In this document: positions 24,785 to 34,257 of the stretch, one piece after another | How positions within the stretch are numbered: the first letter of the stretch is position 1 | Layout of the letters: every line of letters begins with the position of its first letter | Assembly (NCBI GenBank): GCA_018064725.1 | Contig: JAGHUQ010000014.1 | Location: 1-43,044, forward strand | DNA from: Candidatus Cryptobacteroides caccocaballi | GTDB taxonomy: Bacteria; Bacteroidota; Bacteroidia; Bacteroidales; UBA932 | Direction: 5' to 3' | Length of the DNA stretch: 43,044 nt | Position numbers and translations under genes: made by a program | The notes under the pieces: model-generated | The model's input: only the letters and a program-made list of their open reading frames with translations | Database searches by the model: none | Told to the model about the DNA's origin: nothing

Positions 24785-24816
24785 AAAAAGGCGGTGACGA
24801 AAATCACCGCCTTTTT
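24785..24816 (+). terminator. Terminator of CoA-transferase gene
   Basis: Perfect 13-bp stem AAAAAGGCGGTGA-CGAAAA-TCACCGCCTTTTT. Confidence 0.9.
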
Positions 24817-24830
24817 ATTTTTCGCTCTCT

Positions 24831-24945
24831 GTTCCAGTCATCGACGGTGACGAACCCGTGACCACTCTCGGTCTCGTAAGAGAGGCCCGGCGCAAGCCGG
24901 GAGGGATGAGCGGAGCGAAGGTTCGCAGCCGTCGATGACTGGAAC
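24831..24945. repeat. Intergenic structured palindromic element A (115 nt)
   Basis: Closing stem GTTCCAGTCATCGACGG/CCGTCGATGACTGGAAC (17 bp perfect), 3x3 internal loop, CGAACC/GGTTCG (6 bp); inside TCTC-GTAA-GAGA and CCCGGC-GCAA-GCCGGG hairpins, then AGGGATGAGCGGAGCGAAG. Confidence 0.8.
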
Positions 24946-32816: not shown

Positions 32817-33293
32817 ATGGCCAAGATAGAAAAGACAAATGCTGCCCGTCTTCTGGACAAGGCAGGCGTAGCATATGAGCTCGTTCCATACGAGGTTGAT
32901 GAGAACAATCTGGCAGCAGACCATGTAGCAGCTCAGCTTGGCGAGCCGCTCGAGCAGGTATTCAAGACGCTCGTACTTCAGGGCGACAAGACAGGTCACT
33001 TTGTGTGCGTCATTCCGGGCGGCGAAGAAATCAACCTGAAGAAGGCTGCGAAGATTTCAGGAAACAAGAAGTGTGACCTCATACACATGAAGGAATTGCT
33101 TCCTACGACCGGCTACATCAGAGGAGGTTGCTCCCCAATCGGAATGAAGAAGCCGTTCCCGACATATATTGAGGAAAGCGCACTGCTATACGACTATATA
33201 TATATTAGCGCGGGCGTGCGAGGGTTGCAATTCAAGATCAATCCTGAGGACCTCATCGCATTCGTTCCTGCAGAGCCATCCGATATCGTATAA
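32817..33293 (+). CDS. ybaK: Cys-tRNA(Pro)/Cys-tRNA(Cys) deacylase YbaK-like
   Basis: 158 aa; TNAARLLDKAGVAYELVPYE, GCSPIGMKKPFPTYIEESA. Confidence 0.88.
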   Translation: MAKIEKTNAARLLDKAGVAYELVPYEVDENNLAADHVAAQLGEPLEQVFKTLVLQGDKTGHFVCVIPGGEEINLKKAAKISGNKKCDLIHMKELLPTTGYIRGGCSPIGMKKPFPTYIEESALLYDYIYISAGVRGLQFKINPEDLIAFVPAEPSDIV

Positions 33294-33302
33294 TCTTCTT
33301 TT

Positions 33303-33438
33303 CGCCTATAAGGTTGGCAATAGCCGATCTGAGGGCGTGTCCACCCCCGGACACGGGGAGGGCCCAAGCATGCTTGGGAGGGGCCGACGAGGCGAAGCCG
33401 AGGAGTCCCGAAGACGGCTATGCGCAACCTGATAGGCG
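33303..33438. repeat. Intergenic structured palindromic element B (136 nt)
   Basis: 24-nt arms CGCCTATAAGGTTGGCAATAGCCG / CGGCTATGCGCAACCTGATAGGCG pairing as 7+6+7 bp with one mismatch and one 3x3 internal loop; inside GTGTCC-ACCCCC-GGACAC and CCCAAGCATGCTTGGG hairpins, then AGGGG...GAGGCGAAG. Confidence 0.8.
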
Positions 33439-33501: not shown

Positions 33502-34257
33502 TTAGAATGCAACTGCGATACCGATGAAGTCATCTGCCTTAAGAGCAGCACCACCGATGAGGCCACCGTCGATATCAGGCATTGCGAAGAGCTCCTTAGC
33601 GTTAGAAGGCTTGCAAGAGCCACCATAGAGGATGGTAGTGTCATCAGCAACCTGTGCACCGAACATGTCAGCAAGCACCTTGCGGATGTATGCGTGGATC
33701 TCCTCAGCCTGCTCAGCAGTAGCGGTCTTACCGGTACCGATAGCCCAAACTGGCTCGTAAGCGATGACAACGTTCTTCATATCCTCAGCAGTGAAGTTCT
33801 TAAGAACATTAACGGTCTGAGCCTCGCAAACAGCGAAATGCTTCTCAGCCTCACGCTCCTCGAGATTCTCACCTACGCAAAGGATAACCTTGAGACCGGC
33901 AGCGAGAGCAAGCTTGGTCTTCTCAACGAGCTTCTCATCAGTCTCACCGTAGTACTGGCGACGCTCTGAGTGACCGAGGATGGTGTACTGGCAACCAACT
34001 GAGGTAAGCATGTCAACTGAAACCTCTCCGGTGTATGCACCCTTAGCCTTGTCTGCGCAGTTCTCTGCTGAAAGAGCAACGCGAGTACCCTTTACAACCT
34101 CATTTACAGGATAGAGGTGGGTGAAAGGAGTTGCGATGATAAGTTCTACGTCTGCAGGAACCTCTGCTGACTTTGCAACGACTGCTTTTGCGAGCTCTAC
34201 GCCCTCAGGAACTGTAGTGTTCATCTTCCAGTTACCTGCTACGATGTGTTTTCTCAT
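33502..34257 (-). CDS. tpiA: Triose-phosphate isomerase
   Basis: 251 aa; [33 protein letters not shown]. Confidence 0.97.

Follow-up and report, generated by a model that had tools for sequence, protein, structure and literature searches.

An intergenic segment at positions 24831-24945 of a 43,044-nt stretch of DNA from Candidatus Cryptobacteroides caccocaballi (contig JAGHUQ010000014.1; the whole stretch is called the window here) consists of complementary arms enclosing a structured core. It raises the question of what kind of element this is, and whether a second palindromic segment at 33303-33438 is related to it. The two segments, A and B, belong to one dispersed family with about 20 copies in their own genome. 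On sequence comparison they are very probably copies of a family of non-autonomous mobile palindromic elements of one Bacteroidales family, which also lie in frame in genes. Genomes, contigs and loci used for comparison carry G, C and L numbers. The features considered in the window are as follows.

24785-24816, ordinary terminator (AAAAAGGCGGTGACGAAAATCACCGCCTTTTT) directly upstream of A; direct reading
24831-24945, + strand, element A, whole unit of arms and core; own-genome BLAST copies, covariance model, fold z of -8
24831-24856, + strand, 5' arm of A (17-bp stem, TGA side of the internal loop, CGAACC), pairing with 24920-24945; direct reading
24857-24863, + strand, P2 5' strand CGTGACC of A, pairing with GGTCTCG at 24870-24876; family covariation, with 6 of 7 pairs in A by reading
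24865-24869, + strand, pseudoknot 5' strand CTCTC of A, pairing with GAGAG at 24880-24884; family covariation, in A by reading
24870-24876, + strand, P2 3' strand GGTCTCG of A; family covariation
24880-24884, + strand, pseudoknot 3' strand GAGAG of A; family covariation
24886-24901, + strand, P3 hairpin CCCGGC-GCAA-GCCGGG of A; family P3 paired in 100% of cells, with compensatory changes
24902-24919, + strand, conserved joint AGGGATGAGCGGAGCGAA of A, including the short P4 hairpin GC-GGA-GC (24910-24916); columns nearly invariant
24920-24945, + strand, 3' arm of A, complement of the 5' arm; direct reading
33303-33438, + strand, element B, divergent member of the family of A; covariance model built without B
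33336-33342, + strand, P2 5' strand CGTGTCC of B, pairing with GGACACG at 33349-33355; direct reading, compensatory relative to CGTGGCC/GGCCACG
33363-33378, + strand, P3 hairpin CCCAAGC-AT-GCTTGGG of B; direct reading

Element A is an intergenic copy between two convergent genes, behind an ordinary terminator. An earlier sequence-only reading had described this terminator as complete, and inspection of 24785-24816 confirms it. The geometry given there for A is likewise correct in its coordinates, its 17-bp closing stem, its 3x3 internal loop (TGA/CAG), the 6 bp that follow and the purine-rich joint behind the CCCGGC hairpin. The predicted fold of A has an energy of -73.4 kcal/mol (z = -8.0 against dinucleotide shuffles), and none of 200 shuffles was as good. 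The two plain hairpins proposed for the core fared differently: the CCCGGC hairpin stands as P3, but the first small hairpin gives way to a pseudoknot. Its letters, TCTC-GTAA-GAGA, are present in A but are peculiar to it. Their family equivalent is the P2 3' strand GGUCUCG, which pairs with CGUGACC, and GAGAG pairs with the upstream CUCUC to form the pseudoknot.

Used as a BLAST query against its own genome, A found further copies at E = 1e-7 and 1e-6, and the pattern GGGAGGG..GAG..GCGAAG occurred 4 times as against 0 in a reversed control. The score of A in the family covariance model is 67 bits, which is not independent because A is among the 35 training rows. No ortholog of A was found in other species, since synteny at A is not conserved there. 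Element B is an intergenic copy between a small gene (32817-33293) and tpiA (33502-34257, minus strand). A covariance model trained without B recovered it with 34.8 bits and E = 2e-8 genome-wide, which bears out the proposal that A and B share fold and joints. The fold z of B is -5.1 against dinucleotide shuffles, again with 0 of 200 shuffles as good. B is mostly absent beside tpiA orthologs, with one weak match adjoining tpiA (L224 in G432; E 8e-6).

The covariance model R1 was built from 35 copies (alignment A1), with A included and B excluded. A search of this kind for further copies had been proposed in the sequence-only reading, and it returned a dispersed family in the window's own genome and in relatives. 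R1 matched 21 places in the window's genome, of which two, at the ends of contigs C82 and C144, are halves of probably one copy, and the weakest are uncertain. Several relatives hold 10-39 copies each (G096 35, G016 39, G094 33, G073 14, G013 13 and G044 10), and R1 found 0 copies in G052; the genomes compared are mostly incomplete assemblies. Elements are about 97-140 bp long. A composite core query had matches in 75 of 101 genomes of the genus. Within the taxonomic family, 107 of 250 genomes, spread over 11 of 26 genera, have matches. The host group is one Bacteroidales family, probably gut-dwelling. In a phylum sample the window's own genome alone gave convincing matches; four further ones were weak, and phage records gave no match. 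The weak phylum matches outside the taxonomic family (L105-L109) proved on reading to be unrelated palindromes or coding sequence. Two of these loci, from other families of the phylum (L105:1501-1600 and L106:201-330), hold palindromes of other kinds, which carry a GAGCGAAGCGGAG-like motif and seem to be repeat families of their own. The absence of a recognised named family was upheld by Rfam, which returned nothing above the gathering threshold for the window, the A region (E up to 5) or 20 copy-bearing loci. Sub-threshold lines for ar35, PrrB and CsrC were dismissed as chance; they mostly involve the terminator adjoining A.

The common core is an H-type pseudoknot followed by two stem-loops, about 65-110 nt in all, between inverted-repeat arms of about 20-30 bp. 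Its parts are, in order, the 5' arm; the P2 5' strand (consensus CGUGGCC); R; the pseudoknot 5' strand (CCCGU); the P2 3' strand (GGCCACG or GGCCUCG); URA; the pseudoknot 3' strand (ACGGG); AGGGG; the P3 hairpin CCC...GGG; AGGGAUGA; the P4 hairpin; GAA; and the 3' arm. The P4 hairpin is GC-GAA-GC or has 4-8 bp (e.g. GUCGC-GAA-GCGAC), and in many copies it varies in sequence and stays self-complementary. Across the 35-copy alignment, 86% of cells were paired and 153 were doubly changed, compared with 60 in shuffles; the covariation score was 0.363, as against 0.150 shuffled and at most 0.104 in slid controls. Compensatory changes thus exceed both controls, and the proposal that divergent stems with conserved joints mark a structured family holds. 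The pseudoknot helix kept pairing in 99.4% of cells with 26 doubly changed cells, and P3 was paired in 100% of cells with compensatory changes. Among 102 copies the pseudoknot was Watson-Crick in 509 of 510 cells, a count unbiased by model fit because the model included no pseudoknot pairs; GC, AU and UA pairs occurred at one position, UA and CG pairs at its neighbour. Non-Watson-Crick cells on the sense strand favoured G-U over A-C by 39:15 in P1, 9:2 in P2 and 55:4 in P3, the last ratio being dominated by one position and possibly favoured by the model fit. This excess hints that the sense strand may be the strand that folds.

Copies are found in intergenic stretches, in 5' untranslated regions and within protein-coding genes, and occur in either orientation; many are located in long open frames. 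The genes were identified with Pfam and NCBIfam, a codon-usage classifier for coding flanks being too weak. By these domain assignments, copies lie within or between the domains of rsmA, recG, rlmB, rsmF, dsbD, hemW, ribF, murE, rsmH, queH, xerC, dnaX, pmbA/tldD, a hisD-hisC fusion, an FAD-dependent protein and a pseudouridine synthase; the window's own genome has copies inside hemW and truB. At least 14 named genes host in-frame copies. About half of the copies examined in G096 (27 examined) are in genes, about a quarter in G094 and hardly any in G016. The named genes stay open through the element, and the insert extends the open frame.

The frame was examined in pmbA without an open-frame filter, because that filter would favour in-frame cases. 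At site a the anchor distances in 11 species are 191, 155, 173, 179, 173, 224, 293, 365, 164, 185 and 83 nt, all 2 mod 3. At site bc those in 8 species are 376, 229, 226, 121, 223, 49, 247 and 193 nt, all 1 mod 3. Element content thus varies among species and the frame never does, in 19 of 19 species-site comparisons. An exception elsewhere is the second rlmB allele of G447 (contig C97), which changes frame at the element. Since in-gene copies keep the frame, they would be read as about 36-55 extra amino acids, and from frame conservation we infer that they are translated. With so many copies in frame inside genes, the family is better read as resembling the Rickettsia palindromic elements (RPE) than as an intergenic regulatory RNA.

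Several individual loci may be recorded here. Contigs C97 and C124 of G447 (L283 and L278) carry two rlmB alleles with a different element each at the same site, possibly two strains in one assembly. Nested or tandem copies occur in one gene at L290 (xerC, G447) and L257/L266 (pmbA, G058), pmbA remaining in frame. In G094, a single open frame at L161:1457-3928 encodes both HisD and HisC domains, and the linker contains an element copy. The copies L118:2500-2607 and L135:2592-2701 follow directly behind a TANNTTTG motif resembling the Bacteroidota -7 promoter element, and therefore probably lie in a 5' untranslated region.

Presence or absence at the same site varies among species. Empty pmbA sites are found in G015 (site a) and G008 (site bc), and G548 retains only an apparent arm remnant at site bc. 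G447, which over a long stretch shares about 94% identity with G096, lacks the copies of L135, L137, L119 and L128. G094 lacks the L031 copy; two genes overlap there and no palindrome is seen (L159:4611-4820). At orthologous sites in recG, rsmA, pmbA and one intergenic region, the core points in opposite directions in different species. In some genomes the family seems to have amplified recently. No clear target-site duplication was found at the empty sites examined; L135 has CCGGCA on both sides when compared with its empty site (L269), a repeat that is ambiguous since CCGG is itself palindromic.

The arms stay complementary while their sequence varies from copy to copy. In G094 they are about 27-31 bp long with mostly 0-2 mismatches, and differ at each locus between nearly identical cores, sharing a purine-then-pyrimidine profile despite the differing sequence. 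Arms common to several copies were seen only in a G016 subfamily, where one imperfect pair is shared by about 20 copies, and in four G096 copies, which have the same inner arms and outer 5-8 bp that differ and are still complementary. In recG of G096 and G447 the flanks are 94-97% identical, whereas the arms are only about 67% identical, and arm differences (GCGGC to AA, CAG to CCCCCC) are mirrored in the opposite arm. Such mirrored changes make single point mutations followed by compensation seem too slow; strand switching inside the palindrome would do, as would replacement by a different copy at the same site, and the arms may well be re-written in one of these ways, to judge from a handful of orthologous pairs.

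These observations bear on four other explanations. A host-beneficial structured RNA, serving at gene ends as a cis-regulatory element, a terminator or an mRNA-stabilising 3' end, would account for the strong pseudoknot covariation, for the G-U excess in P1 and P2, which is expected if the sense strand folds, and for the many G094 copies about 10-25 nt from the stops of convergent genes. It is nevertheless improbable in view of copies that occupy coding regions in both orientations and whose direction at one site changes from species to species, of the patchy distribution (G052 none, G016 39) with its seemingly recent amplification, and of the complete terminator that A already has ahead of it. 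Highly improbable is a micro-intron or translational bypass, in which the insert would be spliced out or skipped by the ribosome and the protein left unchanged. A structured core within complementary arms inside genes does resemble the anatomy of introns and bypass elements, but neither the kept pmbA frame nor the open frame of the named genes would be required if the insert were removed or skipped, and no group I or II intron or Rfam ribozyme was matched. Programmed removal was accordingly rejected on the pmbA frame evidence.

If instead the core entered the loops of hairpins already present in the host, such as terminators, the arms would be host sequence. This would fit arms that are near-perfect and unique to each site, with outer 5-10 bp that differ even where inner arms are shared (L130-L133). 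No such hairpin is present, however, at the empty sites L159:4611-4820, L269 and L272 or in pmbA of G015 and G008, which shows that the arms were not pre-existing host hairpins there; the common purine/pyrimidine profile in G094 and the single arm set across about 20 G016 copies speak against it as well. Insertion into terminator hairpins is therefore contradicted at these sites, and this explanation is quite improbable. A REP or MITE family moved by a Y1 (IS200/RAYT-type) transposase is rather unlikely, though it deserves more weight. In its favour, the palindrome is folded and strand-asymmetric; of the 21 genomes searched, 12 have Y1 transposases (24 loci), and G052, G041 and G050, which have no element copies at E 1e-6, have no Y1 transposase either. 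Against this, none of the 24 Y1 loci has an element copy within 1.5 kb, and the copy-rich G016 (39 copies), G447 and G058 gave no Y1 match at E 1e-5, so the RAYT link suggested in the sequence-only reading is not borne out. REPs moreover measure 20-40 bp and bear a GTAG or CGTC tag (PMC3733652), as opposed to 100-150 bp and a pseudoknot here. No mobilising gene or transposase linked to any copy was found. A dispersed, MITE-like palindromic family with compensatory stem changes, also envisaged in that reading, is supported by the copy searches and the covariation.

A possible but tentative extension of the preferred reading is that this is a new kind of mobile element. Recognition would then depend on the fold, the end sequences playing no part; the core would be inherited and the terminal inverted repeats rewritten at or after each insertion by strand switching, which would give every copy unique complementary ends and a core that flips in place, and the element would spread in frame through essential genes. 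On the preferred reading itself, the moving enzyme would recognise a folded single strand, not a linear sequence. The arms would be kept complementary and rapidly re-written through strand switching in the palindrome or a swap with another copy, and strand switching within the palindrome would also flip the core. The element would survive as a selfish passenger, tolerated and not needed by the host gene.

REP/RAYT elements are dispersed imperfect palindromes that are probably recognised as folded single strands. The Bacteroidales element is likewise a dispersed imperfect palindrome, probably recognised in folded, single-stranded form; it differs in that REPs are 20-40 bp long, tagged, mostly extragenic and Y1-linked, none of which was found here. 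The closest behavioural likeness is to the palindromic elements of Rickettsia and Wolbachia, which are dispersed, 100-150 bp long and in frame in housekeeping ORFs (PMC10969869, PMC3767692); such invasion is regarded as unusually frequent in Rickettsia (PMC10969869, PMC3767692). Both groups are dispersed palindromic repeats of about 100-150 bp in frame in unrelated genes, a comparison by behaviour with no claim of sequence kinship. The RPE hosts belong to another phylum, and orthologs are reported to carry RPE insertions at one and the same locus (PMC3767692), whereas here the core orientation and presence vary among species at one site, the core combines a covarying pseudoknot with P3 and P4, and the arms differ between copies of one genome. 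By analogy, the Bacteroidales element would work as the coding palindromic elements of Rickettsia do, with two additions, a pseudoknot in the core and arms that are rapidly re-written. MITEs, for which occasional in-frame fusions are described (PMC10969869), are similarly short and non-autonomous, with inverted repeats and tens of copies, but their terminal repeats stay the same from copy to copy and match a transposase; in the Bacteroidales family it is the centre that is conserved and mostly not the ends, and no parent IS came to light. Nematomorpha mitochondria have perfect inverted repeats inside translated genes (PMC6649704), a likeness limited to the position within genes, as their arms encode conserved protein parts, unlike the inserted, dispersed element with its shared core described here.

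A large Bacteroidales family with many species and a high copy number provides natural experiments in the form of filled, empty, flipped and doubly occupied versions of genes. They make it possible to ask by what route the elements move, why an addition of 36-55 residues is tolerated by proteins and how the repeats stay complementary during turnover. For annotation, rsmA, recG, murE and others here carry inserted peptides, not domains.

The G016 loci L140-L155 hold about 20 copies with near-identical arms that adjoin common segments of about 230 nt whose order varies, which makes the subfamily one component of a larger composite repeat.
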